Source of the DNA: a virus
IMG/VR virus record: IMGVR_UViG_3300013286_000059
Location: 1-23,296 of that record
Direction: 5' to 3' (one strand)
DNA length: 23,296 nt
Shown here: piece after piece, positions 3,446 through 21,312 of the stretch
How the letters are laid out: each line of letters opens with the position of its first letter
Numbering within the stretch: position 1 is the stretch's first letter
Made by a program: the position numbers and the translations under genes
Notes under the pieces: model-generated
The model's input: the letters and a program-made list of their open reading frames with translations, nothing else
What the model was told of the DNA's origin: nothing
Database searches by the model: none

Positions 3446-4286
3446 CTGAACCTCCGTCTATGTAGCGACTCAAGCTGTGCTTGTTCATGACATGTATATC
3501 CAAGGCATTAGTTTTGACCACTATATACTGTCCAGGATAATCCTTTTTTTCAACTAAAAACTTCATAATGCCATCCTGCATGTTGATCAAGAGATCCTTG
3601 TCCTTGGTGTATATCATCTTGCCCGGTAGCTCGATAGCAAAGCCGCCGTTGGTTTTTCCATTCATTATGTGTATAGCTATGCTGAAAGCAAAATCATTTC
3701 TAAATGTGGTACTTTCTATATGGTATAAATTTCTAAAATATAACCAGTTGCTTTTTACATAAGATACAAGATCAAACAGAGCCTTTGTGATATCATTCTT
3801 TTCAAATATAAACACGGTGCCCCAATAAAACGGAATACTGAATTGATTTATTCTAGTGAATTCCTTCGTGGGTCGCCATTCAGCAAGATCCATACTGGAT
3901 CGATATACTTGAAAATCCCACTGATTTTTCAATGCTGACTTTAGTATGCTGGAATTTATTATGTAGTCGCTGTCAATTACCAATGTGCGTTCATAAGGGC
4001 TGAGATCGTATATTTGATCTCGAATAAAATTTTTCCACTCCAATCTCTTAACAGTTAGTACTCCGTCGTTAAAGTTTCTCAATTGTGTAGTGTCTTTGAA
4101 ATCCACTGTGATAACTTTATCAAAAGGATGATCAGGATAGCTACCTTTTAACCATCCTGGACTGTCGGTAACTATGCTGACAGGAATATCTAAATACTTG
4201 ATCAACTGCCTAGCTGAAAACACAGCTAGCTTGATGTAATCCAAACTGGCATTGTTTTGAGCAAAGATCACTGCACCTGTGGTCAT
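3438..4286 (-). CDS. GT8-like glycosyltransferase, 282 aa
   Basis: The protein opens with GAVIFAQNNASLDYIKLAVF, the same pattern as its downstream paralogue, followed by a strand ending IVTDSP typical of the nucleotide-binding half of GT-A folds. LVIDSDY at residues 102-108 contains the DxD motif (D105-S106-D107). Conserved aromatic and Gly positions follow in the acceptor half (FYWGTVFIFEK). The ATG overlaps the upstream TGA by four bases (ATGA), which is classic translational coupling; no strong Shine-Dalgarno is visible. There is no signal peptide or membrane anchor, so it probably works in the cytosol. The target is unknown: host lipopolysaccharide, teichoic or capsule intermediates, phage protein or phage DNA are all possible. 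Confidence 0.75.
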   Translation of the reverse strand: MTTGAVIFAQNNASLDYIKLAVFSARQLIKYLDIPVSIVTDSPGWLKGSYPDHPFDKVITVDFKDTTQLRNFNDGVLTVKRLEWKNFIRDQIYDLSPYERTLVIDSDYIINSSILKSALKNQWDFQVYRSSMDLAEWRPTKEFTRINQFSIPFYWGTVFIFEKNDITKALFDLVSYVKSNWLYFRNLYHIESTTFRNDFAFSIAIHIMNGKTNGGFAIELPGKMIYTKDKDLLINMQDGIMKFLVEKKDYPGQYIVVKTNALDIHVMNKHSLSRYIDGGSGV

Positions 4287-5665: not shown

Positions 5666-7756
5666 TTATAGAATTACACATTCGATCAATTTGACACCTT
5701 CGTCAGCACTGGTTTCCAATGCCTGAGCAAACACTGCCGGTGTCCATCCTGCTATGGATGCCTGAGCGGCACCTTCATGATAAGCAATCAACGGTTGCCC
5801 TTTTGATACACGGCCATACACTAGCACTGGCACACGACCTTTTAGTGCAATGTAAGTGCCGCCTTCCAGTTCACTGTTCATCATGTAGGCTGGATTGGTA
5901 CTGACCACGCCCAAGGCTCGATCACCAAGTTGACTGGCTGTGACTTCTTTTTCTCCGCCTATGGAAACCACAGTACCCGGCCCGTATTCTTTGTCGGCCA
6001 AATATTTCTCTGCCAAGTCCGCATATCTAGCTTGTGTAGCTGTGCCTTGAAACAGCACTGCTGTCATGTTTCCAACCATGGTCAAATTGCCATTTGTTCC
6101 AAAAGCTCCACTATATACACCATTGTTGCTGATATTGATGCTGCCATTGGTTGACCAATAGAATCCTGAATTGGAATTACTGTCACTGATAAAATTAAGA
6201 CTAGGCGATACTGCAGAACCATCACCCAAAGATATGGAGTTGGCTCGCATTTTGCCCGTTGATGCATCTATCAAAGATGCACCTGATGTAATCTGGTTTG
6301 CGGTAGCACTGGCTTTGACGTTGCCAGTTACCGCACCAGTTACCGCACCAGTTACCGCACCAGTTACTGCGCCTATAAATGTGGTTGCATACACTGTTCC
6401 AAAAGTGTTACCAGATGATCCTATGTTTCCTGTGCCGGTGTTTCCAGCCTTGATAATACTGGACACAGTGGCAGCTGAGACTGCAATACCTCCACTTACA
6501 TCTCTTGCCACAATAGAGCTCGAGCTAGCCAACAAATCTGCCGGCAGATAAGTTGTAGTGCCAGTTAATTGCAAGGCGGCTGCTTGACTAGCTGTACCAT
6601 TCATAGCTGTTACATTTATAGTGCCTGTGGCATCTCTAGCTACAACACTGGCTACAGAAGTGTTATTGGCAATACTTGCAGTTACATAACCTATGCCAGT
6701 ATCTGTTAATCCTACCTTATCAGATTGCTGTGCTGTGGCGTACACATAATTGGCATACACACTGCTCCATTTGTATGTGGTGCTGCCTATGTTGCCGCCA
6801 ATTATCTGCCCAGGAATTAGGTCACTACCGCTGAATATCAAAGGTGTCAAAGTGGCTCCATTTGGATCTGTGGTTTGTATCTTGAGTAGATTGCTATTAA
6901 CTGTGCTTCGTATGATAGGTGTTTGTGTTCCATCCCCAAATATTTTCAGTATGCCTGGTGTGGCCACGCCGATTTGCAAACCATTATACACATCAAATTT
7001 TACTGTGCTGGTAAAACTGGCATTACCTGCCTGAATAAAATTGCTGGCAGATAGGCCACCCAGCAGATCAGCATTGCTTGCTGTACCCCAAAATCTTTCT
7101 GGTCCTTGAGCGTTGGTAACTCCTGCATTGGTCTGACCAGCTCCCGGTGTGTTTACCAAAGTGATACCCGGCATTATAAAACTAAATCCTGATATAGGGT
7201 TAGTCACAGAATCTAATTGAAATCCAGCGGCATCAATATCAGCACTAATTACATAAATGGTTCTGCCATTCACAATGGCCTTGATAATGTTGTGTTTAAC
7301 TTGGCTGGTGTCTACCACAGTCACTGACACCATCTGAGTATTTTGTCCAGTGGCCACACTGCCGCCCACCAGTGTAAAACTGGCTCCATTCCATACATTT
7401 ACCTGATTGTGATCAGTGTCATACCATAAATCACCAACCACGAGATTAGTGGGCTTATTGGTATAGGTAGTTGCAGTAGTGCCGCTTAGACTTCGCCAAG
7501 TTTTACCACTGTCATAAAATTTAACTTTGTTGGTTAGACTGTCAAACCATATCTGTCCTGGAATTGGCTTGCTAGGAGCCACGCTGTTAGCAAAATTTTC
7601 TAGCAGATAAATGAAATTTTCATTTTGCGCCAAGCCATAGCCGGCATAGCTCTTACCAATGATTTTCAAGTCTAGTGTTGTGTCAATCGTGCCGTCATTC
7701 ACCGCGATTGCGGGTGAAAAAGCTGATCCATTATAATGCGTTATTGTGTATGACAT
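5666..7756 (-). CDS. Tail fibre protein with C-terminal processing-type domain, 696 aa
   Basis: Residues 1-130 are the anchor domain shared by four fibres here: SYTITHYNG, GYGLAQNENFIYLLENFAN at about 39-57, PGQIWFD at 66-72 and GDLWYDT at 108-114. A beta-rich shaft follows, with four GAVT repeats at about 462-478. An SGFYWSTNGSINI block lies near 530. A final domain (about 575-696) begins ARYADLAEKYLADKEYGPGT and ends EGVKLIECVIL. It resembles C-terminal domains of marine phage fibres that I associate with intramolecular-chaperone/autoprocessing (Peptidase_G2-like) modules, but I cannot point to catalytic residues. AAGGAA lies 8 bases before the ATG. A late-type promoter precedes it, so it is probably a late virion protein for host attachment. 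Confidence 0.75.
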   Translation of the reverse strand: MSYTITHYNGSAFSPAIAVNDGTIDTTLDLKIIGKSYAGYGLAQNENFIYLLENFANSVAPSKPIPGQIWFDSLTNKVKFYDSGKTWRSLSGTTATTYTNKPTNLVVGDLWYDTDHNQVNVWNGASFTLVGGSVATGQNTQMVSVTVVDTSQVKHNIIKAIVNGRTIYVISADIDAAGFQLDSVTNPISGFSFIMPGITLVNTPGAGQTNAGVTNAQGPERFWGTASNADLLGGLSASNFIQAGNASFTSTVKFDVYNGLQIGVATPGILKIFGDGTQTPIIRSTVNSNLLKIQTTDPNGATLTPLIFSGSDLIPGQIIGGNIGSTTYKWSSVYANYVYATAQQSDKVGLTDTGIGYVTASIANNTSVASVVARDATGTINVTAMNGTASQAAALQLTGTTTYLPADLLASSSSIVARDVSGGIAVSAATVSSIIKAGNTGTGNIGSSGNTFGTVYATTFIGAVTGAVTGAVTGAVTGNVKASATANQITSGASLIDASTGKMRANSISLGDGSAVSPSLNFISDSNSNSGFYWSTNGSINISNNGVYSGAFGTNGNLTMVGNMTAVLFQGTATQARYADLAEKYLADKEYGPGTVVSIGGEKEVTASQLGDRALGVVSTNPAYMMNSELEGGTYIALKGRVPVLVYGRVSKGQPLIAYHEGAAQASIAGWTPAVFAQALETSADEGVKLIECVIL
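6324..6371 (-). repeat. 12-bp tandem repeat, 4 copies, coding GAVT
   Basis: The + strand unit CCAGTTACCGCA occurs at 6324, 6336 and 6348 without change, and at 6360 with two changed bases (CCAGTTACTGCG). In the minus-strand fibre gene each copy encodes Gly-Ala-Val-Thr, and the length keeps the frame. Confidence 0.9.
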
Positions 7757-7785: not shown

Positions 7786-8443
7786 GTTTCGATTGACTGG
7801 TCCAAGCTGTAAAAGTAGCCAGATCATGTGGTTTGTACGCATACAATTCAGGGTACACAGACAGCCACAACGTGGTCAACTCTGGAATAATGACCTTGAA
7901 TCTGATAGTGGCCCGCCCTTGGTCCAGCATGTGAAGTGTCACAGCATTATTGTTGGCAACATTGGATTTGTAAGTGGCCGCATCTTGGCCGTTTATGCTT
8001 AAGGCAAAATTCTTTTTCTCCATATTTTTAATATCTATGTTGCTTACATCGCCCCAAACAATGCCCATGTCGTCCACGCACTGTGGAATCAGTGTGATTG
8101 TGTTGTTTAGTCCCACTATTGCGTTTCTTGTATTGTCCAGATAGGTGCCGTTGGCTAGATTAACAGTTAGTCTGCGTATTTTAACAGTTTCGTCCGGCAT
8201 CCAAAATGCCAAACAATGCGGATTGTTGATGCTTTCAACTATTACCTTATATCTATCATGCGTGATTGACCCTATATAATGCACCTTGATACCCGTGTTT
8301 GAATGCGATATGTCCTGAAAAGGCACAGGAGCTCCATACAAACCATTGATCAAACGGGTATCAATTGAAAATGCTATGCTGTAAGTATTGTCCGCACTCC
8401 ATCCTGCTGTCATTGTGGGTATACCCTGTATTATTGATTCCAT
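7781..8443 (-). CDS. Unknown protein between fibre genes, 220 aa
   Basis: I do not recognise this protein. It begins MESIIQGIPTMTAGWSADN and appears mainly beta-stranded, with few charged runs. A CLAFWMPDETVKIRRL segment lies near residues 77-92 and a short basic/acidic helix (NMEKKNFAL) near 139-147. The C-terminal third is rich in aromatic residues (WLSVYPELYAYKP). The ATG overlaps the stop of the upstream U32-like gene by one base (TAATG), with AAGGA about ten bases upstream, so the two are probably translated together. In T-even phages an adhesin or fibre-assembly factor often sits next to a fibre gene. That is only an analogy here, and a virion or chaperone role is unproven. Confidence 0.7.
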   Translation of the reverse strand: MESIIQGIPTMTAGWSADNTYSIAFSIDTRLINGLYGAPVPFQDISHSNTGIKVHYIGSITHDRYKVIVESINNPHCLAFWMPDETVKIRRLTVNLANGTYLDNTRNAIVGLNNTITLIPQCVDDMGIVWGDVSNIDIKNMEKKNFALSINGQDAATYKSNVANNNAVTLHMLDQGRATIRFKVIIPELTTLWLSVYPELYAYKPHDLATFTAWTSQSKQ

Positions 8444-9441
8444 TATCCAAAATTCCTTATAAGTCCGTCGTAAACTTTGTCACACTTGTTGCATTCAATT
8501 CCACACACTGATTTGCAGTTTTTGGTAATTTCATTGAATCCTAGATCGGACAATTGATTTACCACAGTGCCGGCCAGCAACTGATCACCCTTGGTACTGA
8601 GCAACTCGCCTAATCTTATATTGCCACTGCGTTTTTGGTAACTGTCAACTACCCGAGTCCAGTGGTCTATGGGAAATCCTCGACCAGCCAGTTTTATAGT
8701 GTCAACTAGTCCATCAAACTTGCCAATGTCATTGGGCAAGGTAAACGCAGTTTTTAACCATTCGCTGGGTTGACTCTTGAAATAATTTACACATCCCAGT
8801 TCTACATATATCTTGTCAGTAAGTCGCCTATCATCGCCCTCTTTGGTCTGACTTATTATCAAATCATCCCACTGCTTCCATTTGCAATCTACTATACAGC
8901 CTTCATTTACTAGCATAGTTATCTTGATACCATGTTGATCAGCATAATCTTTCATTTTCTTCAGTGTGTCCAAGTCTCTATTTAGACTTCTATCCACTAT
9001 TATGCTGGTAAGCGCCAGTTCCTGATGCATGAACACAAAGTCTTTGAGTGTCCTAACCAAATTATTCACACTATTTTTTAATTCAAGTTCAGGCTTGCTC
9101 ACATGAAAGTCTTTTATTATGCCAGCTCTCAACAAATAGGTGTTGTTCAATGTCACAATGTCAACATCTATTTCACTCACATAGTTTATCAACTGGGGCA
9201 CTTGACTGTAAAACTCATTTGTATAGGTGCTTGGATTTATCAAATAGTGCATCTTGATGCCATAGCGTTCCCTTACAGCATACATTTCATCAAACATCTC
9301 ATCACCGTTGAAAATACTTCTAGCACTGCCAAACTTGTTATCACTGAAAAACACATCACTTATGGTGCTGGTATCCAATTTTTCCAAGGCATTCAGTATA
9401 CCTTGAGTGTAGGGTATGCTGAATTTAACCGGCATATACAT
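8443..9441 (-). CDS. U32-peptidase-like TIM-barrel protein with Cys cluster, 332 aa
   Basis: The sequence shows alternating strands and helices with landmarks of the U32/collagenase-like superfamily: a GSAR motif, an NPSTYTNEF region, DIVTLNNTYLL, then LVNEGCIVDC and, later, IKLAGRG followed by a helix ending in VVDSY. Counting from the 9441 ATG, Cys are at 182, 186 and 217, and four more form CKSVCGIECNKC at 309-320. U32 relatives such as UbiU/UbiV, RlhA and TrhP act in quinone or RNA hydroxylation, and UbiU/UbiV carry Fe-S clusters; any of these roles here is inference. The start at 9441 is preferred over an in-frame one at 9492 because AGGA sits 6 bases upstream. It overlaps the end of the upstream fibre by 17 bases. 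Confidence 0.65.
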   Translation of the reverse strand: MYMPVKFSIPYTQGILNALEKLDTSTISDVFFSDNKFGSARSIFNGDEMFDEMYAVRERYGIKMHYLINPSTYTNEFYSQVPQLINYVSEIDVDIVTLNNTYLLRAGIIKDFHVSKPELELKNSVNNLVRTLKDFVFMHQELALTSIIVDRSLNRDLDTLKKMKDYADQHGIKITMLVNEGCIVDCKWKQWDDLIISQTKEGDDRRLTDKIYVELGCVNYFKSQPSEWLKTAFTLPNDIGKFDGLVDTIKLAGRGFPIDHWTRVVDSYQKRSGNIRLGELLSTKGDQLLAGTVVNQLSDLGFNEITKNCKSVCGIECNKCDKVYDGLIRNFG

Positions 9442-11983
9442 TTCTAATCCTACTTGATAAGCCAATCCAACCAGCACTAATACCAGTACCATGATACGGA
9501 TGTCCTTGATCCACAGCTTGCACGACTATGGTAAAAACCCCATAACTGGAATTTGTATTGTCTATAGACACTGGATAGGACGAAATGCTCCATACACCTG
9601 TACCAAAGCTGTAATAAGCATTTCTATTGTCATACACTCTGGTCAAACTTGGAGAAAGATTAAAACTGTAATTACCCCTCCAGTACAGACTACTAGAAAC
9701 ATTGCTAAGCCCTAATATACTGGCCACATCCACAGTGAATGTCACAGTTGGCGCACCATCTGTGCCTGAGAGACTGCTGCTCCAACCCGATCCATAGGAT
9801 ATGCCTTGGCCATTGCTGCCTCGAACACTTTGAACCACACTACTGGCCGTGGTCAAATCAATGCTGCCTATAATACTATCAACGATACGCGACAGGTTAG
9901 CATTGAGATTATTAACATTGACCGCCGCCGGAATACTAGGAAGGTTATTCAGGTCGTTGTAATTGCCACTAGTAGCCACTGCAGCCAGAAGAGGGGTATA
10001 CAATACTCCAGTTGAACTGTTGTATGTCAACCCGCCTGACACACCGATACTGTTTCTAGCTCTAGCGACTGTAAAATACAAGTTGGTAGCACCTTCTGAC
10101 ACCGTGTCTGTGTTGCCTTGCGTATAGCCAAACACGCCAGTGGTGCTATTGTATGTGAGCGCACCTGAGGCACCAACGCTGGTCCTTGCCCTTTGCTGCG
10201 TGAAGTACAAATTAGATCCTTCATCCACACTGGATGTGTTTATCGAAATGTCACCTGTGCCGTCAAAGTATGAGCCATTAATATATCGGCCAATCTGCAA
10301 TTTAGTTGCAGTGGTGGCATTGCCAGTAACATTGCCAGTAACTGGACCACTATGGACACCCGATGTGTTGCCGGTCACATTTCCAATCAAATTGCCAGAC
10401 ACATCACCTGTCACATTACCTGTCACACTACCTGTCACATTACCTGTCACATTACCAGTATGGACTCCAACAGTATTGCCAGTGACATTCCCGATAACAT
10501 TGCCTGCTAAGTTGCCGGTTACATTGCCGGTTACATTGCCGGTTACATTGCCGGTTACATTGCCGGTATGAACTCCAACAGTGTTGCCAGTTACATTGCC
10601 AGTAACATTGCCAATTGCCGGGCCAATTACTGCTCCAGTATGCACTCCAGTTGTATTACCTATCACATTCCCTGTCAAATTACCTGTAACATTCCCCAAC
10701 ACCGCACCAGTATGAGTGCCTTGACTATTACCAATAATACTAATGTTGTATGTTAGCTGATCATTGAACACAAAATTATCTGGCTTGTTACCTATATTAC
10801 TCCAAGCAACATAATTTGCTACAGTCGCTGTGTTTGCTAATGATGCAACATCTGCTAACAATGCATGATCGCCATTTACACTATAAGTTGCAAGGTCTGC
10901 AATACCGTGAAATGCACCATAAAATGCCGGAGAGGAAATAGCACCATTGGCGTCTCTTGCCACAACTGTGTTGGGTACAGTGCCGTCTACATTTGCCGAA
11001 AGATACTGGCCGTTTACACTCAGAGTAAGACTTTTTGTAGCCACGCCATTGAATGTATTGGCATATACACTATACCATTTATTTGCATTGGTTCCCAAAG
11101 TGCTTGTGTTGGATCCAGGCAACACATCTGACCCTGATAACAGCAAAGGTGTAGCTACTGCTCCGTTTGATCGTGTTACAAATGATATGTTAGAGCCCAC
11201 ATTATTTGCCAAAGTTGGCACCGATTTCACATTACTTATGGTCAACGCCGATCCCACATTAATTCCAGAATCAGTTGTTCCTATACTTGATGTGAATACA
11301 GGATTACTAATAGGTGCAAAATAGCTGGATGGCAGATTATTCAAATTGTCAGCATTAGTTGCTGTGCCATGCAATTTTACTGTGTTCGCAAGAGTTATAC
11401 CTGTATATATAGTTGGAAGATTGACCAGTGTGCTGGAATTAATCTGTGTATTGCTGATTGTGAATATGGTATTGCCATTAACCATGGCCTTCTGTATTGG
11501 TATACCCTGCTGATTAACACTTTGCATCTGTGTGTCAGCAAAACCATTTACACTTTGTGGGCCTATAATGGTGTACCCTGATCCATTTGAAATATTCAGT
11601 TGGTTGTTATAGGTATCCCACCACATGTCACCCACTGTGAGAGGCGCTGCCACAAAACTGCCACCGGACGATGATTGAGGAAATATGCCCGATGGCGTTG
11701 TTCCAACATTCAAATTGGCTACCGATTTCCAGCCAGATCCATCATTCACATTGAGTTTTAAGTTTGTAGATGTGGAATCAAACCATACTTGACCAGAGAT
11801 GGGAGCAGTGGGTGGATTCACATTGCTGAAATTTTCCAACAAGTATACAAAATTTTCATTCTGGGGCAAGCCATAACCAGCATAATTCTTACCCACTAAT
11901 GTAATATCCAATACAGTATTGATTGTGCCGTCGGCCAATGCAATAATGGATGTGCCGTTGTATCTCGTTATGTTATATGACAT
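9425..11983 (-). CDS. Tail fibre protein with GNVT-repeat shaft, 852 aa
   Basis: The shared fibre anchor is at residues 1-145: SYNITRYNG, GYGLPQNENFVYLLENF at about 37-53, SGQVWFD at 63-69 and GDMWWDT at 118-124. A beta-rich region follows, with a NKWYSVYANTFNG block near 300-313. A Gly-Asn-Val-Thr repeat shaft lies at about 423-557, broken four times by GVHTG or GVHSG. Two copies of an EGxxNLYFTxxRAR...SG.LTYNS.TGV unit lie at about 588-662, a motif common in marine phage fibres. The C-terminal 190 residues have aromatic-rich strands and end HPYHGTGISAGWIG...VYAG, and may be the receptor-facing tip. AAAGGGG lies 8 bases before the ATG, and a late-type promoter precedes it. Confidence 0.75.
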   Translation of the reverse strand: MSYNITRYNGTSIIALADGTINTVLDITLVGKNYAGYGLPQNENFVYLLENFSNVNPPTAPISGQVWFDSTSTNLKLNVNDGSGWKSVANLNVGTTPSGIFPQSSSGGSFVAAPLTVGDMWWDTYNNQLNISNGSGYTIIGPQSVNGFADTQMQSVNQQGIPIQKAMVNGNTIFTISNTQINSSTLVNLPTIYTGITLANTVKLHGTATNADNLNNLPSSYFAPISNPVFTSSIGTTDSGINVGSALTISNVKSVPTLANNVGSNISFVTRSNGAVATPLLLSGSDVLPGSNTSTLGTNANKWYSVYANTFNGVATKSLTLSVNGQYLSANVDGTVPNTVVARDANGAISSPAFYGAFHGIADLATYSVNGDHALLADVASLANTATVANYVAWSNIGNKPDNFVFNDQLTYNISIIGNSQGTHTGAVLGNVTGNLTGNVIGNTTGVHTGAVIGPAIGNVTGNVTGNTVGVHTGNVTGNVTGNVTGNVTGNLAGNVIGNVTGNTVGVHTGNVTGNVTGSVTGNVTGDVSGNLIGNVTGNTSGVHSGPVTGNVTGNATTATKLQIGRYINGSYFDGTGDISINTSSVDEGSNLYFTQQRARTSVGASGALTYNSTTGVFGYTQGNTDTVSEGATNLYFTVARARNSIGVSGGLTYNSSTGVLYTPLLAAVATSGNYNDLNNLPSIPAAVNVNNLNANLSRIVDSIIGSIDLTTASSVVQSVRGSNGQGISYGSGWSSSLSGTDGAPTVTFTVDVASILGLSNVSSSLYWRGNYSFNLSPSLTRVYDNRNAYYSFGTGVWSISSYPVSIDNTNSSYGVFTIVVQAVDQGHPYHGTGISAGWIGLSSRIRNVYAG
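9448..9451 (-). promoter_or_regulatory. Ribosome binding site deciding the U32-like start
   Basis: AGGA on the minus strand lies 6 bases before the ATG at 9439-9441, inside the end of the 852-residue fibre gene. The longer in-frame start at 9492 would add a Val/Leu-rich stretch (VLVLVLVGL) that is simply the fibre's coding sequence read in another frame. Confidence 0.6.
10313..10717 (-). repeat. GNVT tetrapeptide repeat region of the 852-aa fibre
   Basis: About 135 residues are built from Gly-X-(Val/Leu/Thr)-(Thr/Ile/Ser/Ala) tetrapeptides, mostly GNVT. A higher-order block of the form GNTxGVH(T/S)GxV recurs about every 25-40 residues. The pattern suggests a regular triple-stranded beta shaft. 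Copies differ at the DNA level except for the short perfect tract listed separately. Confidence 0.85.
10512..10567 (-). repeat. Perfect 12-bp tandem repeat, 4.7 copies, coding GNVT
   Basis: The + strand unit TTGCCGGTTACA starts at 10512, 10524, 10536 and 10548 with no change. A fifth partial copy starts at 10560 and diverges at 10568. It encodes Gly-Asn-Val-Thr in the fibre shaft. The identity of the copies stands out against the varied codons around them and suggests recent slippage or copying. Confidence 0.92.
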
Positions 11984-12016: not shown

Positions 12017-13705
12017 TTATAGATTGGTTTGATATACCCAAGTACCTGAGGTCAACTTGAACTGCTTAATAGTGCCATTGGTCACATCGCTTGTTATGGT
12101 TATCACATTGCATAAACAACCTTCATTGTGGTCAGTATTCAAGAAAATTTTGCTTAAAAAAGTGCTGGCTATGGTGCTATTGGATAAGCCAGTAGTGGGC
12201 AGACCAACAGACACTGTAGCTGTTTTCACAGTGCTGTCCACATAATTTTTGTTTGCAGCATCTGTTCCGATTATAGGCGTGGCCAAATTTATAATTTTGT
12301 TGGTGGTAACATCCACGCTGCCGTTCAATGGAGACAATCTAATATTACCAGTAGTCTGCCCTGAATTAACATAACTGATAGTGTTATTTTGTATATTGAG
12401 ATAAGCAGCTTGCAAACTCAGTAGACTGCCAATAGTCTGTAAACCTGTAGCTCTAGTTATACCTGAGCCCAATTCAGTTGCGCTGATCACTGTGGCACCG
12501 TTGATCTTGTATGTTTTTCCAGTAGCTAAATTGATATTTTCACTGCTGTTAAATGCTGTTGTGGCACTACTGTACAACCATGTTTTATTTGTGGATCCAG
12601 CAACTATCAAGCCGGCGCCGTTGGCAGTCGCATCGCTAGGGCTTGCTGTATTAGCCAAAGTAACTGTGTAATCAGCCAAACTGACATTTAGAGTGCTGGT
12701 GCTGGTAGTGGATCCTTTTACCGTCAGATTGCCTTCTATGATTACACTGCCAACAGCCCCTCCATTGGTTCCGATATGCAGTGTGGCTTGTGGATTACTG
12801 TTGTATATTCCCACGAAATGTGAGTTGGCGGTAGCGTGTATGGCATCGTTGGTACTGTTATTGCCATCTTTGAGTTGTAACAGAAAATTTTGATTAGGAA
12901 CCAATGACTTGATAACTAATCCATCGGTGGGCGTAACATCAAACTCTATACTGCCAGATGTTCCCAATTTCAATGGTGCTGTATTAGCAATGGTTAGTGC
13001 GCCAGTCATGATGCTGTTGCCAGTCGTAGTTACAAAATCGCCGGCTGTTTTTAACGATCCGTCATTGGCAACTAGAGATTTTGATCTACTGACCAGCTGA
13101 TCAAACAAAAATCCTGAAATTCCGGCAGCAGTGAAACCCTGTCCTACCGTAGCCACGCCATACAAATTATTGCTGCTGGCGCCAACAACAAAAGCCGTAT
13201 CTCTATTGTAAACGCCCAACAATACACCACCTAGATACAGACTCAAAACAGTGTGGCTCAAATTATTAGTGTCAATTACATCCTGTACCTGGAATCCACT
13301 TAGACCTTGACTGGCGGTATATATGGGTCCTGCCAAAAGAGTGTTCAATCCGTCGCTGAACTTAAGTTGTTCATTCAAACTGTCAATCCAGATATCACCT
13401 GCAGTTAGTACAGGTGAACTGGGGCTAACTATGGTTCCGCCACTAACTTTCCATGCCTGTTGCGCTGCATCAAATACCTTGAGTCTTCCTTGATTGGTGT
13501 CATACCACAGTTGTCCAGTCAACGGTTTTCTAGGCGAGTTGCTGTTGGCAAAATTTTCTAACAAATACACTAGATTTTCGTTGAATAACAATCCGTATCC
13601 TGAACTGTTTTTGCCTATCAGCGTCAAACTGGTGTTCTGATCTATGCCGCCATCGGGTATAGATGTAAGTAGCGTAGCATCTGATTTGGTAATTGTGTAG
13701 CTCAT
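12017..13705 (-). CDS. Tail fibre protein, 562 aa
   Basis: The shared anchor occupies about residues 1-130: SYTITKSDA, GYGLLFNENLVYLLENFAN at about 36-54, TGQLWYDT at 63-70 and GDIWIDS at 103-109. A beta-rich shaft follows. A block at about 345-405 (DYTVTLANT, then a segment with NKTWLYSS and NINLATGKTYKINGA) is familiar from marine phage fibres. NKIINLATPIIGTDAANKNY at about 469-488 matches the KITNLxxPxxxTDAANKxYVD motif widespread in phage tail fibres. The C-terminal 65 residues contain a CLC triplet and strands. The ATG overlaps the upstream fibre's stop by one base (TAATG), with CAGGTG upstream. It is probably co-transcribed with the 741-residue fibre. Confidence 0.75.
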   Translation of the reverse strand: MSYTITKSDATLLTSIPDGGIDQNTSLTLIGKNSSGYGLLFNENLVYLLENFANSNSPRKPLTGQLWYDTNQGRLKVFDAAQQAWKVSGGTIVSPSSPVLTAGDIWIDSLNEQLKFSDGLNTLLAGPIYTASQGLSGFQVQDVIDTNNLSHTVLSLYLGGVLLGVYNRDTAFVVGASSNNLYGVATVGQGFTAAGISGFLFDQLVSRSKSLVANDGSLKTAGDFVTTTGNSIMTGALTIANTAPLKLGTSGSIEFDVTPTDGLVIKSLVPNQNFLLQLKDGNNSTNDAIHATANSHFVGIYNSNPQATLHIGTNGGAVGSVIIEGNLTVKGSTTSTSTLNVSLADYTVTLANTASPSDATANGAGLIVAGSTNKTWLYSSATTAFNSSENINLATGKTYKINGATVISATELGSGITRATGLQTIGSLLSLQAAYLNIQNNTISYVNSGQTTGNIRLSPLNGSVDVTTNKIINLATPIIGTDAANKNYVDSTVKTATVSVGLPTTGLSNSTIASTFLSKIFLNTDHNEGCLCNVITITSDVTNGTIKQFKLTSGTWVYQTNL

Positions 13706-15930
13706 TATATCACACCTGTGAAAATTATGTAGTTAATGGTTTGGTAAGGATTCATAGTGTTCACTGGCTGACTGCTTGTACTCGAAATCATGCTACCACT
13801 GTTTGATAATCCAAATCCTTGCCCAGTTGCGCTGGTTTGAGTAAGACCAAAACCAGGCTGTGTGCTATCGTTAGTGATGGGATTTGGAGCACCCACAGCG
13901 TAGTATTGATTCCCTGCATTATTTAGACTGTGTTTGTGATCTGGCAAATTTCCTGTAGTAAGGGATACATTTTGCACTCCACTACCTGCGCCAACTATGG
14001 CTGCTGTTGCATCACTCACTCGATTGACCACACCGCCGCCAGCACTGATTGTGCTGAGGGGATTTGTCTTGCTTATCATCTCAAACCCATTGCTCATGTT
14101 GTCAGCACCAAGAGCAAAGCGTCCCCGCAAGTCAGGCAATGCAAAAGTAGAAACACCATTCAACAGTGCGGCAGTTTTGTATGTGTATAGTATCACATTG
14201 AATAATGAGCTGTAGGTGGATGTAGACACTTCGCTACCATCGCACAGCAGATATCCTGAAGGAGGTATTTTGCCTGCGAATGGAAATATTGCACCCACTG
14301 GCACTGTAGCCACATGATTGAGCAGAGTGGCTTTGCTCATTTTAAATAATTGGCTTGATCCTGGTCTGTTTATCAGCAACTCATCTGTGAAATTGCTATC
14401 GGTCAGGGTGGTTTTTGTTGTAAATAATTGTGTGCTCAATGTGGTCAAAAACTGTGCAGTGCCGTTAGCACCATTAGTACCACTAGCACTTTGCCCATCA
14501 AAAAGAATAATTTGACTGCTTACATCGCCTGCCATGCTGAACTGGGTAGGACTTGCCAACTTGGCAGCACTGCCATTCACGCTGCCTGCCAAACTGCCTG
14601 CAAACGTTCCATTGAATGACCCCACAAAAGTGTTGGCATAGATATTTCTAAATTTGGCTGTAGGACTGCCAATATCAAATACACCGCTCTGCGGAATATC
14701 AGCAGTGCCAGGCAGTATGGCAGGGCCCACCTCACCATTGTTCCAATTAATATAAACCTGGCCCTGCGTGGTAACATCATCTCCCAGTATAGTTTTCTTA
14801 CCTACACTAAGCCCACCTGCAGTAGCCACGCTGGCTGTAACTGGGTCAATTGCATCCTGTGTACTAGCTATCGTTAGACTGCCGTTAATCACGCTGCTGC
14901 CTGAATTGCGTATGTTCACTGCTCCGTACACATTTAAATTAGATTGCAATGCACTAAGACTGCTGCCCCCTACCTGAACTATGTTTCCATTAGGATTTAT
15001 TGAAAGCAAGGGCACTATAACATTTGAGCCGTTGACAGCATTAAATGCAATACTGTTACCCTGAGTGCTACTTGTGAATGTGGTTGTTCCTGCAAGTGTG
15101 CTGATCTTGAAGCCGTCACTTATGCCAAATGTGATACCACCATCACTCTTGATCTTGATAGGAACATTTATGGTACCATCACTAGCACTGTCAGTTCGTA
15201 AAAAATTATCCCCACTATATTGCACACCTTTTACTAATAAACTGGCTGAACTGCTGGAGGTACCCCACAGGGCCGAAGTGACACCTGTGATAGGAGTCTG
15301 CGTCAATGCTGTCGGAATATTAATACCACTATTGAGAGTTTGATATCCCTCGAGGCGATTTTTAGGTATAAAACTGTCTGTACTTATTATGGCCACTCGA
15401 GCAGGAATTCCTGTAGCTGCCGAACTTGCATAAAGCGATATTACTGCATGACTTACATTAGCTGTATCAATTATATTTTCTACCACTGGGCCTGATGTTT
15501 GTCCTAGACTGTACTGCGGACCCACGAGAAGCCAATTGCTACCACTGTAAAGATACAGCTGACTGTTGTCAGTGTCTACCCACAAGTCACCTGCTATACT
15601 GCTTGCAATTGTGGGAGCACCGGATGACAGAGTACTTTTTCCAGCTTTTTTTATTGATCCAGCTTCTACCCAAGTGGTACCGTTCCATACTCTCAGCAGA
15701 TTGGTTGAACTGTCGTACCATATCTGTCCTTGTATAGGATTAGCTGGAGCTGTAGTGTTGGCAAAATTTTCCAACAAGTGTAAGAAATCAGCAGCAATAA
15801 CGGGACCATATCCTGTGTAATTCTGACCCACAAATGTGAGACTGGTCTGAGTGTTAAGACTTTGATCCTGAACAGTGATAGGCACTTTGGCTGGGTTGTT
15901 GGATTCAGTAAATTGAACTTTGTAAACCAT
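13705..15930 (-). CDS. Tail fibre/collar protein, 741 aa
   Basis: A variant of the shared anchor is at about residues 1-140 (FVGQNYTGYGP, HLLENFANTTAPANPIQGQI, GDLWVDTDNSQLYLY). A long beta-rich shaft follows, with a short FNGTFAGSLAGSVNG repeat near 439-453. The phage tail-collar domain is at about 543-608: VPVGAIFPFAGKIPPSGYLL, CDGSE, then ALPDLRGRFALGAD. LPDHKHSL at 662-669 carries an HxH (H665, H667), like the metal-binding histidines of T4 short tail fibre and related tips. The protein ends QTINYIIFTGVI, the usual ending of collar-type fibres. A perfect TAAGGAG lies 6 bases before the ATG. It is likely a receptor-binding late protein. Confidence 0.85.
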   Translation of the reverse strand: MVYKVQFTESNNPAKVPITVQDQSLNTQTSLTFVGQNYTGYGPVIAADFLHLLENFANTTAPANPIQGQIWYDSSTNLLRVWNGTTWVEAGSIKKAGKSTLSSGAPTIASSIAGDLWVDTDNSQLYLYSGSNWLLVGPQYSLGQTSGPVVENIIDTANVSHAVISLYASSAATGIPARVAIISTDSFIPKNRLEGYQTLNSGINIPTALTQTPITGVTSALWGTSSSSASLLVKGVQYSGDNFLRTDSASDGTINVPIKIKSDGGITFGISDGFKISTLAGTTTFTSSTQGNSIAFNAVNGSNVIVPLLSINPNGNIVQVGGSSLSALQSNLNVYGAVNIRNSGSSVINGSLTIASTQDAIDPVTASVATAGGLSVGKKTILGDDVTTQGQVYINWNNGEVGPAILPGTADIPQSGVFDIGSPTAKFRNIYANTFVGSFNGTFAGSLAGSVNGSAAKLASPTQFSMAGDVSSQIILFDGQSASGTNGANGTAQFLTTLSTQLFTTKTTLTDSNFTDELLINRPGSSQLFKMSKATLLNHVATVPVGAIFPFAGKIPPSGYLLCDGSEVSTSTYSSLFNVILYTYKTAALLNGVSTFALPDLRGRFALGADNMSNGFEMISKTNPLSTISAGGGVVNRVSDATAAIVGAGSGVQNVSLTTGNLPDHKHSLNNAGNQYYAVGAPNPITNDSTQPGFGLTQTSATGQGFGLSNSGSMISSTSSQPVNTMNPYQTINYIIFTGVI

Positions 15931-15936
15931 GCGTAT

Positions 15937-15943
15937 CTCCTTA
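15937..15943 (-). promoter_or_regulatory. Shine-Dalgarno TAAGGAG fused with a stop codon
   Basis: On the minus strand the TAA stop of the 202-residue gene (15941-15943) runs straight into GGAG, forming TAAGGAG. The ATG of the 741-residue fibre is 6 bases further on. Ribosomes ending the first gene stop on the binding site of the second. Confidence 0.8.
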
Positions 15944-16549
15944 TACTGCCACTAGGCCAGTAAGGCTTTGTATTCTTACTGTGTAGTCAATCTGTATCAA
16001 ACGGTTCAAACTTTTTAATACTGGATGAAAAATCACATGCGTTAGCAAACTAGTTGTTCCGTCTGTATTTAAGGATTGCAATCCCAACTCGTCAAACACA
16101 TATGCAGCACCTGTACTGGTCACTGTGTCATAGGCATCTTGTCCGCTGGGCTCACCATAGTCTAACAAACAAGTTACAAAAATGTCTGTGTAGTTGTTAC
16201 CAGTGGTATGGCGTGTTTCAATAAAATTTCTAGTGGGATCAAGATTGGTGCTGGAGTGCTGATTCACTACTTTTTGATAGGTCTGACTATATAGGCTGGC
16301 ATTTGTTCCAGCAGTATTGGGTGTGAGATATGTAATAATCCCAGTGGGATCTATGTTAGTGCCACCGTTACCAAAGCCCATTTGGTATATGAAACCGTTG
16401 CCAGCATTGGCCAAACTGGTGGCCATTGCTATGCTGATATTTTCATAATGAATGGCATTGCGTTTGTTTATGTAGATCTCATGACTTGAAGGATCATATA
16501 TCTTTATATGTCCCTCTATATGGATGCCTGTTGCGTCTTTTGTCTGCAT
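15941..16549 (-). CDS. Probable virion structural protein, 202 aa
   Basis: The protein has a charged start, an IKIYDPSSHEIYINKRNAIH region at about 15-34, a helix, then QMGFGNGGTNIDPTG at 56-70 and a beta-rich second half ending in YTVRIQSLTGLVAV. I recall this pattern from uncharacterised virion proteins encoded near fibre genes in marine T4-like phages; no catalytic motif is visible. GAGAG lies before the ATG and a late-type promoter lies further upstream, so it likely leads a transcript that continues into the 741- and 562-residue fibres. Its TAA stop is the first part of the Shine-Dalgarno of the next gene (15937-15943). Confidence 0.7.
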   Translation of the reverse strand: MQTKDATGIHIEGHIKIYDPSSHEIYINKRNAIHYENISIAMATSLANAGNGFIYQMGFGNGGTNIDPTGIITYLTPNTAGTNASLYSQTYQKVVNQHSSTNLDPTRNFIETRHTTGNNYTDIFVTCLLDYGEPSGQDAYDTVTSTGAAYVFDELGLQSLNTDGTTSLLTHVIFHPVLKSLNRLIQIDYTVRIQSLTGLVAV

Positions 16550-16598: not shown

Positions 16599-17822
16599 TT
16601 ATCGGGTACCCGTTGTTTTACGAGGATAAACAGGGCCTGTAGTCCTGAATCCGTAATTCTGTTTGGGGAAAACAGTCCCGTTACGAATTATTTTATACAC
16701 GGATATTCCAATAGGTGGACCCAGTCCTGTAACCGCATCCCAGCCGCTTGTTCCTGCATACCCGCTGGTTATTACAGTATTGTTAGTGCCAACCAAAATA
16801 TCGTAAAAAGCATTTGGATTAGCATAGGCTATAGCATTCCAATCAGCACTGGATCGGTTTATACCAGTTAGCTGTTGATATCTGGCAAGTATGCCGGCCA
16901 ATATTGGGCTTGCAAGACTGGTACCTCCAAATCCATAAACAACACTATTATAATATAATTTATAAACATTCATTGGGGCAGAAAAATCTGGTGCGCCACG
17001 CATTGACAACGGAGTAGGACTACCAGTAACTCCGCTGGTGATTGGAGTATAATACAAACCAGTTTGCCAAGTAGGCAAAGAAAATGTTGTACTGACTCCA
17101 CCACCGCCACCCCATTTGCTACCAAAAGCAAATTCTCTGTTGTCATCTGATTCTGCTGCTCGATTATTATTGCCGTCTAATGTAAGTTTTGTGCCGCCAA
17201 CAGATATTACATTTGGGCTGGATGCTGGATAGCAAAGTTGCAAAGAAGTGCCGGCATTGCCCAGTGTTGATCCCCAATCACCTGAGGCAGCAAGCACAGT
17301 AATTTTTGCATTGGCGGCGGCTGTAAAATATTGTTCGTCCGATGTATATTCACTGGTGGCCCAACTAATAGTAATAATGTTCATGCCATCCGCAATGGCT
17401 CGTGTAATCATACTTCCGTAACTTCCACCAATATAGATTGTGATACTGGCTTGGGGCGCCATTGTGGCGGCACAGAAAATATCCACTGTATTTTCTGCGC
17501 TGTACCCTGGATCGATCGAACTAAAAAATCCGGCTTGACCATCAAGTAATACTTTTGTAACGGTTGGAGGAGAATATGCCGTAGACATCAGCCCAGCTGT
17601 TTGTAGATCTGCCCAAGATTTATTGAGGTCTGCCTGTAGGAATCCTCCACCAAAACTTAAAATTCCAATTTTTATACCCAGTCCGGTTGCATTTGGAATA
17701 TTATAGGCTTTGGCAATTGTAGGCCCGTTGAGTTCCCCGTTACCAGCTAATGCAGACGGTAATTCTCCTGTTGCAGGATCTTTTAAGTCTACTGAAAATA
17801 ATTGTACGGACTGGGGGTTCAT
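16599..17822 (-). CDS. Sedolisin-type (S53) serine-carboxyl peptidase, no propeptide, 407 aa
   Basis: The catalytic residues expected of sedolisins are present in order: AENTVD gives Glu110 and Asp114, SGDWG gives the oxyanion Asp182, and GGTSLASP gives the nucleophile Ser302. The C-terminal calcium site also looks complete: FYDILVG with Asp341-Ile342, then the AGTSGWD...TGLG region with Asp362. The catalytic domain begins within the first 35 residues (PTIAKAYNIPNATGLG), so the propeptide of roughly 170-190 residues found in most secreted sedolisins is absent, as is a signal peptide. A basic C-terminal extension (about 380-407) lies beyond the fold. AGAGG is 6 bases before the ATG, one base after the repeat-fibre stop. 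Its place among late virion genes suggests a virion-borne or maturation protease; the target is unknown. Confidence 0.88.
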   Translation of the reverse strand: MNPQSVQLFSVDLKDPATGELPSALAGNGELNGPTIAKAYNIPNATGLGIKIGILSFGGGFLQADLNKSWADLQTAGLMSTAYSPPTVTKVLLDGQAGFFSSIDPGYSAENTVDIFCAATMAPQASITIYIGGSYGSMITRAIADGMNIITISWATSEYTSDEQYFTAAANAKITVLAASGDWGSTLGNAGTSLQLCYPASSPNVISVGGTKLTLDGNNNRAAESDDNREFAFGSKWGGGGGVSTTFSLPTWQTGLYYTPITSGVTGSPTPLSMRGAPDFSAPMNVYKLYYNSVVYGFGGTSLASPILAGILARYQQLTGINRSSADWNAIAYANPNAFYDILVGTNNTVITSGYAGTSGWDAVTGLGPPIGISVYKIIRNGTVFPKQNYGFRTTGPVYPRKTTGTR

Positions 17823-17823
17823 A

Positions 17824-20800
17824 TTAAACCTCTAGTTTCAAGTATGTTAATGTTACAATAATTGCAGTCGAGCCGCCACTGTTGTTATATATCTTCAAAT
17901 AGGCATTAGTACTTACGGACACATCCGCATTGAATCCCATCACTGCTGGAGTAAAGTATGTGGTAGTTGCTGTTGTAGTAATTGCTTCTGCTACCACTCC
18001 ACTACCAGGAATCGGATCTGTTGTTATCGCTCTAGCACTGTCACTGCTTTGTGCAGTTGAACTGGTATAAACAGTGATCCATGCTCCTGCGCTAACTTGT
18101 ATGCTGTACAATGCATATCCTTTAGACATGACCACTGTGGCATTGACGCTAGCTTGATTAGCTAATACTGTTGTAGTAGCGGAAACTGTGGCTCTAGAAG
18201 TACCACTAGTTATAACGCCGTTGTTGATAGTAACGGTACTACCATCAACCTTTACCCCTCCCAATGCTAAGGTTGTTGCCACAGGTAATGAGTAAGCTGT
18301 GGCACTTATTATACTGTTGTTAATTGTTATACTGGTGCCATCAACTTTGACACCACCCAATAGATTGGTTGTAGCAATTGGCAATGTATAGCCTCCGGCG
18401 GCGGCGCTAATCACACCGGTGCCAGCATTTATAGTTATGGTAGTTCCATCCACTTTCACGCCACCCAAGGTGAAGATTGAGGCCGTGGGCAAATTGTATT
18501 GTGTTGCGGAAATAACACCAGTGCTAATGGTTATGGTACTGCCGTCTACTTTTACTCCACCCAACTGAGTGGTAGTAGCAGTGGCCAATCCCAAAGTACC
18601 CAATGAGTTTGTGATGCCGCTGGTAGCAACTGCAGGAATAATCACGCCGCCTAATACAGTTGTGGTACTTGCAGGCAATGAGTAACTATAGGGAGCACTA
18701 ATCACACCAGTGCCAGCATTTATGGTCACAGTGGTTCCGTCCACTTTGACGCCCCCCAATACCGTTGTGCTGGCAGTGGGCAAGGTGTAGCCGCCTGTGC
18801 TGGTTATGACTCCGTTGCTGATAGTTATAGTGGTACCGTCTATCTTGACTCCACCCAACTGAGTGATACTGGCAGTGGCCAATCCCAAAGTACCCGATGT
18901 GTTTGTGATGCCGCTCGTGCCCACAGCTGGCACAATCACTCCACCTAACGCACTGGAGGTAGTGGCAGGCAATGTGTACGATGCTATGGGTGTGAATCCC
19001 AATGCAGTTGTCACTTGGCTGCTGGTCAATGTGTTACCGCTGATGCTGGTCACAGTGCCAGCACTGCCACTCACACTGCCTGTAATGGTATTGGTCACTG
19101 TCAAGTTAACCAGTGTGCCTACAGAAGTCAAACTGCTGGCAGTCACTGCGGGATTGAGTGTTACGCCAGTCAAAGTGCCAGCGGCGGCCACGGTGGAACT
19201 GGGTATTCTCTGCCAAACTGTACCGTTATATATTACAAAATCACCTGCTGTATATGTAATTGTACCAGAACCCAAGTTGACTGATCCACCTACACTGACC
19301 GCGTACTCAAAACCTGCTGTGCCCACACCGTCAACCAAAGACGGAGTGTTGGTGCTGGCATTCCATGTGCCTTTAAAGATCACCACGCCAGTCAAACTAT
19401 TGGGAATCTGACTGGCAGATAATTTGCCATCAGAACCCAGTGTAGCAATGCCGTTTATTAAGCCTAATGTTCCCACACTAATGGAACCGTTGCCTGATAT
19501 ATTAATTGTTGTTCCATCCACCTTTACTCCACCTAATATGTTTTGGGTAGCTGTGGGCAAACTGTAGCCACCCGGAGTGGCTGATATAGCACCATTTCCA
19601 TTTATGGTAATGCTTGTTCCATCAATCTTGACACCGCCCAACTGAGTGGTACTGGCAGTGGCTAGACCAATAGTGCCTGATGTATTTGTGATGCCACTGG
19701 TGCCAACTGCTGGCACTATCACTTCCCCCAATGCACTGGAGGTAGCTGCTGGCCTTACAGCACTGATCACTCCACTGCTGATTAGCACAGTGGTTCCGTC
19801 CACTTTGACGCCGCCCAAGGTGGAGGTCGAGGCCGTGGGCAGACTGTACACTTGTACACTAATGGTGCCATCGCCTGTGACATTTACTCCACTTCCAATC
19901 TTGACCCCGCCCAACGAGCCAGATGCAGACACAGGCAATGTGTAGGTTTGAGCACTTATTGCTCCATTAAAAATAGTTATAGTCGTTCCATCTATTTTGA
20001 CTCCACCTAACACACCAGTGCTGGCAGTGGGCAATGAATAGGTGTTTGCTCCACTGATAACTCCGTTGCTTATGGTTATAGTGCTACCATCCACTTTGAC
20101 TCCACCCAACACACCAGTGCTGGCAGTGGGCAATGAATAGGTGTTTGCTCCACTGATAACTCCATTGCTTATGGTTATAGTGCTACCATCCACTTTGACT
20201 CCACCCAACACACCGGTGCTGGCAGTGGGCAAATTGTATTGCGAACTGATGACTCCAGCATTGATTTGAATACTTGTACCGTCAATTTTGACACCCCCCA
20301 ATACACTAGTGGTGGCAATAGGCAATGAATAGGTTGCTGTGGGAGCACTAATCACACCAGTGCCAGCATTTATGGTCACAGTGGTTCCGTCCACTTTGAC
20401 GCCCCCCAATACCGTTGTGCTGGCGGTGGGCAAACTGTATGCCCCAGATGCCGCTTTGAGAATTCCCGAATTCACTGTGATAGTGGTGCCGTCCACCTTT
20501 ACTCCGCCCAACTGAGTGGTACTGGCAGTGGCTAGACCAATAGTGCCTGATGTATTTGTGATGCCACTGGTGGCAACTGCTGGCACTATCACTTCCCCCA
20601 ATGTACTGGAGGTAGCTGCTGGCCTTACAGCACTGATAACGCCACTGGCCACTGTGATTGTTGTCCCATCTGGTTTAGACACGCCCAGCTGACTGGTAGT
20701 GGCTGTTACTACACTCAAAACTCCATACTGTGTTGTTGTCACTGTAGTGCCGTCTGGCTTGATTCCCCCTAGTATAGAACTGGTGGCATTTGGCAAAGAA

Positions 20801-21312
20801 TACACACTGTAATTGGCTTGTATGACTCCGTTGCTGATGGTTATGCTAGTTCCATCCACTTTCACGCCACCCAATGTGGAGATTGAGGCCGTGGGCAGAC
20901 TGTAACTGAAAGACGCTGATATTACACCTGTGCTGTTGTTAATGGTTATACTTGTACCATCAACACGCACTCCACCCAGGGTTCCCATTGAGCTAATACC
21001 TGCTGTGGGCAAACTGTAGGCAGCAGGTGTGCCTACCAACTTGGCATAGCTGAGACTGTTTATCCATGAAGGATCGCTGTAACTGCCAGTGGTTAATACG
21101 CCATTATTAATAGCTACTGGTCCCCAGTACACATTAACTCCATCATTGAACAGCACCTGTCCTGCACGGCCATTCCTATTGGGCAATGTGTTTTGTAGTT
21201 GTACAGCATATACCTCTGAAAAATTAGCATTTATTTTAATAGCTGCGTTGCGCAAGGTATCGCCAGTCTTGTCTCCAATAACTGTACCTACATTGATTAA
21301 TTGTTGTGTCAT
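17824..21312 (-). CDS. Giant repeat tail-fibre/structural protein, 1162 aa
   Basis: The N-terminal 45 residues (INVGTVIGDKTGDTLRNAAI, then KINANFSEVY) form a phage-type attachment domain also seen at the start of other marine phage structural proteins. From about residue 99 to 1038 there are 24 repeats of 28-36 residues with the core YSLPTAST..LGGVKVDGTT.TI..GVIS. These are interrupted at 615-778 by a different domain (GLINGIATLGSDGKLSASQI, then FKGTWNASTNTPSLVDG, GDFVIYNGTVWQRI, and LGFTPIAS). Four repeats are a variant with IVPAVGTSGITNTSGT or close to it. The last 124 residues (1039-1162) are a compact beta domain (GYALYSIQVS, WITVYTS, DPIPGSGVVAE, TLTYLKLEV) familiar from T4-like cyanophages. 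AGGA lies 7 bases before the ATG. It is probably a long fibre or whisker. Confidence 0.8.
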   Translation of the reverse strand: MTQQLINVGTVIGDKTGDTLRNAAIKINANFSEVYAVQLQNTLPNRNGRAGQVLFNDGVNVYWGPVAINNGVLTTGSYSDPSWINSLSYAKLVGTPAAYSLPTAGISSMGTLGGVRVDGTSITINNSTGVISASFSYSLPTASISTLGGVKVDGTSITISNGVIQANYSVYSLPNATSSILGGIKPDGTTVTTTQYGVLSVVTATTSQLGVSKPDGTTITVASGVISAVRPAATSSTLGEVIVPAVATSGITNTSGTIGLATASTTQLGGVKVDGTTITVNSGILKAASGAYSLPTASTTVLGGVKVDGTTVTINAGTGVISAPTATYSLPIATTSVLGGVKIDGTSIQINAGVISSQYNLPTASTGVLGGVKVDGSTITISNGVISGANTYSLPTASTGVLGGVKVDGSTITISNGVISGANTYSLPTASTGVLGGVKIDGTTITIFNGAISAQTYTLPVSASGSLGGVKIGSGVNVTGDGTISVQVYSLPTASTSTLGGVKVDGTTVLISSGVISAVRPAATSSALGEVIVPAVGTSGITNTSGTIGLATASTTQLGGVKIDGTSITINGNGAISATPGGYSLPTATQNILGGVKVDGTTINISGNGSISVGTLGLINGIATLGSDGKLSASQIPNSLTGVVIFKGTWNASTNTPSLVDGVGTAGFEYAVSVGGSVNLGSGTITYTAGDFVIYNGTVWQRIPSSTVAAAGTLTGVTLNPAVTASSLTSVGTLVNLTVTNTITGSVSGSAGTVTSISGNTLTSSQVTTALGFTPIASYTLPATTSSALGGVIVPAVGTSGITNTSGTLGLATASITQLGGVKIDGTTITISNGVITSTGGYTLPTASTTVLGGVKVDGTTVTINAGTGVISAPYSYSLPASTTTVLGGVIIPAVATSGITNSLGTLGLATATTTQLGGVKVDGSTITISTGVISATQYNLPTASIFTLGGVKVDGTTITINAGTGVISAAAGGYTLPIATTNLLGGVKVDGTSITINNSIISATAYSLPVATTLALGGVKVDGSTVTINNGVITSGTSRATVSATTTVLANQASVNATVVMSKGYALYSIQVSAGAWITVYTSSTAQSSDSARAITTDPIPGSGVVAEAITTTATTTYFTPAVMGFNADVSVSTNAYLKIYNNSGGSTAIIVTLTYLKLEV
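18691..18783 (-). repeat. Dispersed 93-bp repeat, partner at 20341-20433
   Basis: The two stretches are 1650 bases apart and differ at a single base by hand comparison. Both lie within the 1162-residue fibre gene and keep the frame (550 codons apart). Confidence 0.85.
19634..19767 (-). repeat. Dispersed 134-bp repeat, partner at 20504-20637
   Basis: The two stretches are 870 bases (290 codons) apart and differ at two bases (19703 and 19734 against 20573 and 20604). Each holds a complete VPAV-type unit and parts of its flanks, so they look like a recently copied module. Confidence 0.85.
20009..20206 (-). repeat. Near-identical 99-bp tandem duplication
   Basis: Copy one (20009-20107) and copy two (20108-20206) are 99 bases each and differ at only one base in my hand comparison. 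A third copy starts at 20207 and diverges after about 23 bases. Each encodes 33 residues of the fibre repeat (TYSLPTASTGVLGGVKVDGS type). Confidence 0.88.

Follow-up and report, generated by a model that had tools for sequence, protein, structure and literature searches.

Sedolisins (MEROPS family S53) are acid enzymes whose propeptide is thought to be needed for folding and for restraint. The pro-domain (Pro-kuma_activ, PF09286) is typical of the family without defining it; membership rests on the peptidase unit. In kumamolisin, Glu32 is connected with both the catalytic Glu-Asp pair and Trp129. A full-text literature search for sedolisin together with phage returned no paper on a phage sedolisin. 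We describe here an S53 gene on the minus strand of the window, by which we mean the whole stretch of viral DNA analyzed, a 23.3-kb fragment. A sequence-only reading of this DNA, which named no strand, had called the gene a complete sedolisin without propeptide, set between tail genes. The gene and its neighbors are as follows.

16599..17822, minus strand: propeptide-less sedolisin (S53) gene, 407 aa, 42.4 kDa.
17824..21312, minus strand: upstream tail fiber, 1162 aa; PHROG 15343 at 383 bits, with a baseplate-wedge N-terminal motif (PHROG 958); syntenic in relatives.
17827..18216, minus strand: beta-sandwich domain at the fiber C terminus, which is the protease's conserved partner; AlphaFold2 pLDDT 88.6, eight strands.
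15941..16549, minus strand: downstream 202-aa gene; PHROG 11259 at 218 bits, with tblastn matches in Phosso, Atu_ph07, CBB, and others.
13705..15930, minus strand: tail-collar fiber, next in the conserved order; PF07484 at 62 bits, and synteny.

The protein is a true S53 sedolisin. It matched kumamolisin-As (1sio) by phmmer with an E value of 2.9e-29 over residues 36 to 378, at about 30% identity, and Pfam gave a partial match of 43.7 bits to the clan-mate S8 profile PF00082, which is explained by S8 and S53 belonging to the same clan. An AlphaFold2 model built on a 27-sequence alignment (pLDDT 80.4, pTM 0.83) had kumamolisin-As as its top Foldseek matches (E about 1e-26; TM 0.72 to 0.73 by query and 0.82 to 0.83 by target). 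The profile search and the structure prediction had both been proposed as checks on the claim of a complete sedolisin; together with the catalytic set, they bear it out. The catalytic residues align with those of kumamolisin, given in parentheses, and are encoded at the following positions.

17493..17495, minus strand: Glu110 codon (Glu78).
17481..17483, minus strand: Asp114 codon (Asp82).
17277..17279, minus strand: Asp182 codon (oxyanion Asp164).
16917..16919, minus strand: Ser302 codon (nucleophile Ser278, in GGTSLASP).

All four are invariant, in 69 of 69 viral and 23 of 23 cellular sequences, and the calcium-site residues that the sequence-only reading had also picked out are present: Asp341 is kept in 64 and Asp362 in 66 of the 67 viral rows that reach these positions. 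Catalytic set, peptidase-unit homology, fold, and calcium-site Asp residues all agree with S53 membership. The Asp-His-Ser triad of S8 subtilases is not found in the protein, where Glu110 and Asp114 replace the His. The protein also matched PHROG 3677, a phage protease family, and showed no similarity to tail-fiber assembly chaperones of the gp38/Tfa type in Pfam, PHROG, or NCBIfam. Inspection by eye reveals no signal peptide, in keeping with the earlier view.

A search with the S53 protein found 36 viral loci. A broader search used an alignment of the mature domain, from which the C-terminal tag was excluded because tags could otherwise bias the result; among its 152 viral matches, the 80 best were used, and a cut at 90% identity left 69 nonredundant viral sequences. 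Cellular relatives in the genome collection numbered 351, at 36% identity or less, and the best 80 of these were used. The viral S53s form one group against a cellular sample of 18 to 23 sequences (SH-aLRT 100; UFBoot/SH-aLRT 98/99 in a second tree). Values of dN/dS were 0.09 to 0.24 in propeptide-less pairs versus 0.09 to 0.14 in the computable propeptide-bearing pairs, figures that are rough because several dS values lie near saturation; from these low ratios we conclude that the protease activity is under purifying selection. S53 copies in two otherwise conserved cassettes (L020:6001-7267 and L111) are frameshifted or truncated, through sequencing errors or real decay.

Host contamination or an assembly artifact, for which nothing speaks beyond the metagenomic origin of the DNA, is refuted by the synteny conserved across independent contigs; the first search had given 36 viral loci and the broader one 152 matching stretches. 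A T4-type portal gene lies on 8 of 20 related contigs searched, and the viral clade is distinct from cellular S53; we therefore discount contamination almost entirely, and the assignment of the gene to a phage contig stands. The carriers are large phages, presumably from fresh water, going by the IMG sample numbers. A tblastn search with a propeptide-less or a propeptide-bearing query found no S53 in 50,697 deposited phage records. The same query matched plasmid S53s at 34 to 37% identity, so the search was able to see S53.

The open frame of the gene spans just 410 aa, of which the protein takes up 407. An in-frame propeptide cannot have been overlooked, and a miscalled start concealing one is ruled out. 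PF09286 was absent from the protein by Pfam and from the whole window contig; the same search of contigs does detect the pro-domain in related phages, and representative propeptide-bearing viral S53s score 46 to 62 bits. We also considered a pro-domain supplied in trans and rejected it, as a search for PF09286 across 20 related contigs detected it in none of the propeptide-less ones, which include contigs of 345 kb and 357 kb. The lack of a propeptide noted in the sequence-only reading is thus upheld. Two positions in the gene are relevant here.

17733..17822, minus strand: residues 1 to 30, a short N-terminal segment that replaces a pro-domain of 130 to 180 residues, going by low pLDDT at residues 1 to 23 and by N-terminal lengths across the clade.
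17655..17657, minus strand: Ser56 codon, which takes the position of kumamolisin Glu32 in the alignment of viral and cellular rows.

The propeptide-less viral S53s fall into one clade, of 42 rows with support of 100 in the first tree and of 41 rows with support of 100/100 in the second, where it is recovered in all 200 bootstrap trees. The pro-domain was found in 0 of 42 rows of this clade versus 25 of 25 complete viral rows outside it. A single ancestral event therefore removed the propeptide within a phage S53 clade in which it is otherwise retained. The Glu at the Glu32 place follows the same division: it is present in all 25 propeptide-bearing viral rows and in 15 of 23 cellular rows, and absent from all 42 propeptide-less viral rows, which have Ser (32 rows), Ala (7), Gly (2), or Met (1). 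This is the most consistent difference seen in the active-site network between propeptide-bearing and propeptide-less orthologues. Since the two losses make up one evolutionary event, they are associated, and neither can be called the cause of the other. Loss of this buried Glu suggests that the pH dependence has been retuned, and if so, the zymogen switch would have gone out of use.

The idea that propeptide-less sedolisins are unheard of was rejected, because several cellular S53s, notably from Chloroflexota, show no pro-domain; the lack of a propeptide is therefore rare rather than unique. Six cellular S53s (L182, L199, L215, L223, L227, and L228), several of them from Chloroflexota, combine secretion-type N termini with no detectable pro-domain, and those inspected carry Ser or Asp where kumamolisin has Glu32. 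Core-only sedolisin forms have also been reported from a fungal secretome (PMC6278154).

The fiber stop codon and the S53 start codon are separated by 1 nt in the window. The single-base spacing described in the sequence-only reading is correct on this side only, the gap to the downstream 202-aa gene being about 50 nt; its view that the partners are tail-fiber and virion genes is supported. The 202-aa protein is kin to a protein labeled structural in the jumbo T4-like phage CBB (gp230); Atu_ph07 and Phosso encode related proteins as well. The conserved order is a large fiber, a fiber with LGGVKVDGTT repeats, S53, the 202-aa structural relative, and the collar fibers. Where a classed fiber lies upstream, the protease starts 1 to 3 nt after its stop in 49 of 55 cases, and propeptide-bearing and propeptide-less S53s fill the same slot. 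The C-terminal domain of the fiber is jelly-roll-like, with no significant PDB match by fold (best E value 1.1e-3).

Several other features of the window were noted. Four paralogous fibers on the minus strand (5666-7756, 9425-11983, 12017-13705, and 13705-15930) share an N-terminal domain (YGLxxNENFxYLLENFANS...PGQxWFDS), differ in their downstream parts, and form an array of interchangeable fibers. Within the fiber cluster, 8443-9492 (minus) encodes a protein with a Cys-rich C terminus and a weak match to a PHROG "peptidase" family (phrog_5757); in Atu_ph07 and Phosso, several radical-SAM genes lie at a similar distance from the relative of the 202-aa gene. Beside the fibers, 421-4286 (minus) holds a run of proteins resembling sugar-transfer or surface-modification enzymes, of which three were scanned with no NCBIfam match.

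The proteases have two types of C-terminal tail, each matched to a fiber type. Fibers ending in a VTLTYLKLE-type beta-sandwich pair with proteases ending in RPxxGxxYPR (R-type) in 34 of 34 cases, and fibers ending in GDIWYQTF pair with proteases ending in KTxxTW repeats (K-type) in 11 of 11. The fourfold table under strict patterns (34, 0, 0, 11) gives a Fisher P value of 1e-10, which overstates the evidence because about three switches between R and K suffice on the tree, and only one of them lies on well-supported branches. Rows left unclassed by the strict patterns lie mostly on the same diagonal, as judged by eye. The K-type tail had no match in deposited phages.

Three loci (L018, L145, and L155) encode S53 as a natural fusion with about 1000 residues of other domains, Ig-like ones in L018. 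The fused part in L018 is related to what in L007 is a gene of its own, located after S53, and that gene matches baseplate-wedge and virion families. S53 is thus encoded with, or fused to, tail and virion proteins. These observations bear on two explanations that place the enzyme off the particle. It might be set free at lysis and digest host or extracellular proteins, for instance receptors on debris, or feed neighboring cells, in line with the usual role of sedolisins in bacteria and fungi as secreted digestive enzymes (PMC6278154). The protein has no signal peptide by eye, however, and strict fiber coupling, virion-type tails, and fusions would be unexpected of such an enzyme, so that we consider this improbable. 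A cytoplasmic protease that attacks host proteins during infection would fit intracellular synthesis and the lack of both a signal peptide and a zymogen domain, but its late fiber-cluster location, the acid-favoring chemistry of sedolisins, and again the virion-type tails and fusions make this reading more doubtful still.

The R-type tail of the window protein maps as follows.

16602..16670, minus strand: C-terminal tag FPKQNYGFRTTGPVYPRKTTGTR, residues 385 to 407, predicted to be disordered (pLDDT about 45).

The 28 C-terminal residues are basic, as had been proposed from the sequence, and over the final 30 the pI is 11.6, with six K/R and no D/E. The extension indeed has the look of an attachment tag. 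A strict DNA pattern for the tag had 41 matches across the collection, all of them S53 C termini. Of 1711 distinct open frames in the loci analyzed, 61 carry the looser motif RPxxGxx[YF]PR within their last 50 residues, namely 53 S53, 4 S8, and 4 small ORFs, and all 61 lie in fiber-protease cassettes. The notion of an S53-specific tag was dropped, since the looser motif is also carried by S8 proteins, those of S-H38, S-CREM1, Sf-FR1, and S-CAM1, and by four tiny cassette ORFs. The latter (L246:4224-4457, L254:7292-7531, L256:1845-2129, and L258:2710-3019) are cyanophage ORFs of about 80 to 100 aa that end in the motif beside virion-type genes; they are possible adaptor proteins.

Among cultured phages, 42 records contain homologues of the fiber C-terminal domain, and nearly all of them belong to Synechococcus phages. 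In 12 phages examined (S-H38, S-H9-1, ACG-2014h, S-RSM4, S-CAM1, S-WAM2, ACG-2014e/i/j, S-CAM4, S-CREM1, and Sf-FR1), a subtilisin-like protease gene begins 0 to 1 nt after this domain, as identified by annotation, Pfam, or sequence similarity; Pfam confirmed S8 in eight of the slot proteins scanned. The S8 proteins have intact Asp-His-Ser motifs of their own, and about half carry an azurin-like C-terminal domain instead of a tag. The slot holds something other than S8 in S-SCSM1, Sf-CH1b, and S-CRES2. The S-SCSM1 record labels an S8-bearing protein, the fiber, and the slot protein all as "virion protein," which is indirect evidence for virion location, and the S-SCSM1 paper reports that mass spectrometry identified 45 proteins of the virion (PMC9602691). 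The slot after this type of fiber appears to be a cassette, filled by S53 in presumed freshwater phages and by S8 in marine cyanophages, sometimes with the same tag.

Two further explanations can be weighed against this comparison. The sedolisin fold might act as an adhesin alone, with no need for proteolysis; the gene occupies the place of a fiber-tip adhesin, and other tail proteins reuse enzyme folds. With the four catalytic residues invariant in 69 of 69 sequences and proteases of a second family, their Asp-His-Ser motifs intact, taking over the slot, we think this highly unlikely. The other is fiber maturation, the alternative to surface digestion raised in the sequence-only reading, in which the protease cuts its partner fiber or another tail protein during assembly and need not remain on the particle. 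The obligate fiber neighborhood, the 1-nt coupling, and the match between fiber and tail type would all suit it; the C-terminal chaperone domains of some fibers get cut off, and this slot is often held by fiber-assembly proteins in tailed phages. The fused S53s (L096/L018, L145, and L155), however, have no such fiber upstream, S-SCSM1 and Sf-CH1b have the same fiber domain but no S8 in the slot, and in the fiber, conservation extends through the final residues of the C-terminal domain, with no sign of a disposable end. Maturation is the less well supported of the two, and we hold it to be unlikely, although the least so of the alternatives.

We favor a tail-fiber-docked, interchangeable virion protease that is active without a propeptide, and put the probability of this reading at roughly 60%. 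The protein would be a serine-carboxyl endopeptidase of the active type, coproduced with the tail fiber, on which, or near which, its C-terminal tail would mount it. Once on the particle, it may cut host-surface proteins during adsorption, much as tailspike depolymerases act on sugars; surface-layer or outer-membrane proteins, named in the sequence-only reading, would be candidate substrates. After the single loss of the pro-domain, the enzyme would have evolved propeptide-independent folding. This reading is argued for by the invariant catalytic set, the low dN/dS, and the 1- to 3-nt fiber gap; by the R/K matching, the S8 proteases in the same slot, and the common tag; and by the Ig-like fusions, the S-SCSM1 labels, and the failure to find a pro-domain in trans. 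Counted against it are the azurin-like ends of about half of the S8 proteins, the slots without S8, the small number of R/K switches, and the acid character of sedolisins, set against the pH of lake water. Whether aquatic T4-like phages carry an exchangeable fiber-protease cassette, with S53 or S8, a family-independent tag, and a fiber docking domain, and with one large S53 branch that lacks both the propeptide and Glu32, part of the acid proton network, we regard as an evenly balanced proposition.

The fold, the Glu-Asp-Asp-Ser set, the calcium-site Asp residues, and an equivalent of Trp129 (Trp154) are shared with kumamolisin and kumamolisin-As (PDB 1gt9, 1sio, and 1t1e). Unlike these, the window protein has no pro-domain or obvious secretion signal, has Ser56 for Glu32, and carries a basic C-terminal tag in a phage fiber operon. 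Propeptide-bearing phage S53s (group B, e.g., L033 and L029) belong to the same viral clade and share the slot and the C-terminal tag, but they keep the Pro-kuma_activ domain and Glu32 and are 34 to 40% identical to the window protein. With orthologues that have and lack the propeptide sharing one gene slot, the clade opens an old question to direct test: the reason sedolisins depend on a propeptide, and the residues through which folding and acid activation are coupled. The propeptide-less Chloroflexota S53s (Ktedonobacter L215 and relatives) resemble the window protein in having no detected pro-domain and, in L215, Ser at the Glu32 place; they differ in their secretion-type N termini and lie on long branches far from the phage clade. 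The S53s of giant viruses (Homavirus, Barrevirus, Terrestrivirus, and Sylvanvirus) are also viral and gave the best structural matches among viral models (BFVD), but they belong to eukaryotic giant viruses and, in the first three, have 578 to 972 aa with extra regions.

The S8 proteases in the fiber clusters of Kyanoviridae (e.g., S-H38 gp095, S-CREM1 ORF165, and S-RSM4 039) occupy the same slot, 0 to 1 nt after the same fiber domain, and some end in RPxxGxx[YF]PR. They belong to the Asp-His-Ser family, have about 130 additional residues in their N-terminal part, and show no significant full-length similarity to the window S53 (single-pair E value 0.03). A fiber-mounted, plug-in protein cutter of this kind appears to be undescribed so far, and if the reading is right, the short tag would lend itself to the mounting of cargo on fibers. 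The proposed logic, a tail enzyme that clears the host surface, would be that of tailspike depolymerases and other tail-borne enzymes, whereas here the enzyme is a peptidase encoded by a separate gene. Tail-mounted proteases would then be a general, swappable phage tool against protein surface layers, the counterpart of the depolymerases that act on sugars.
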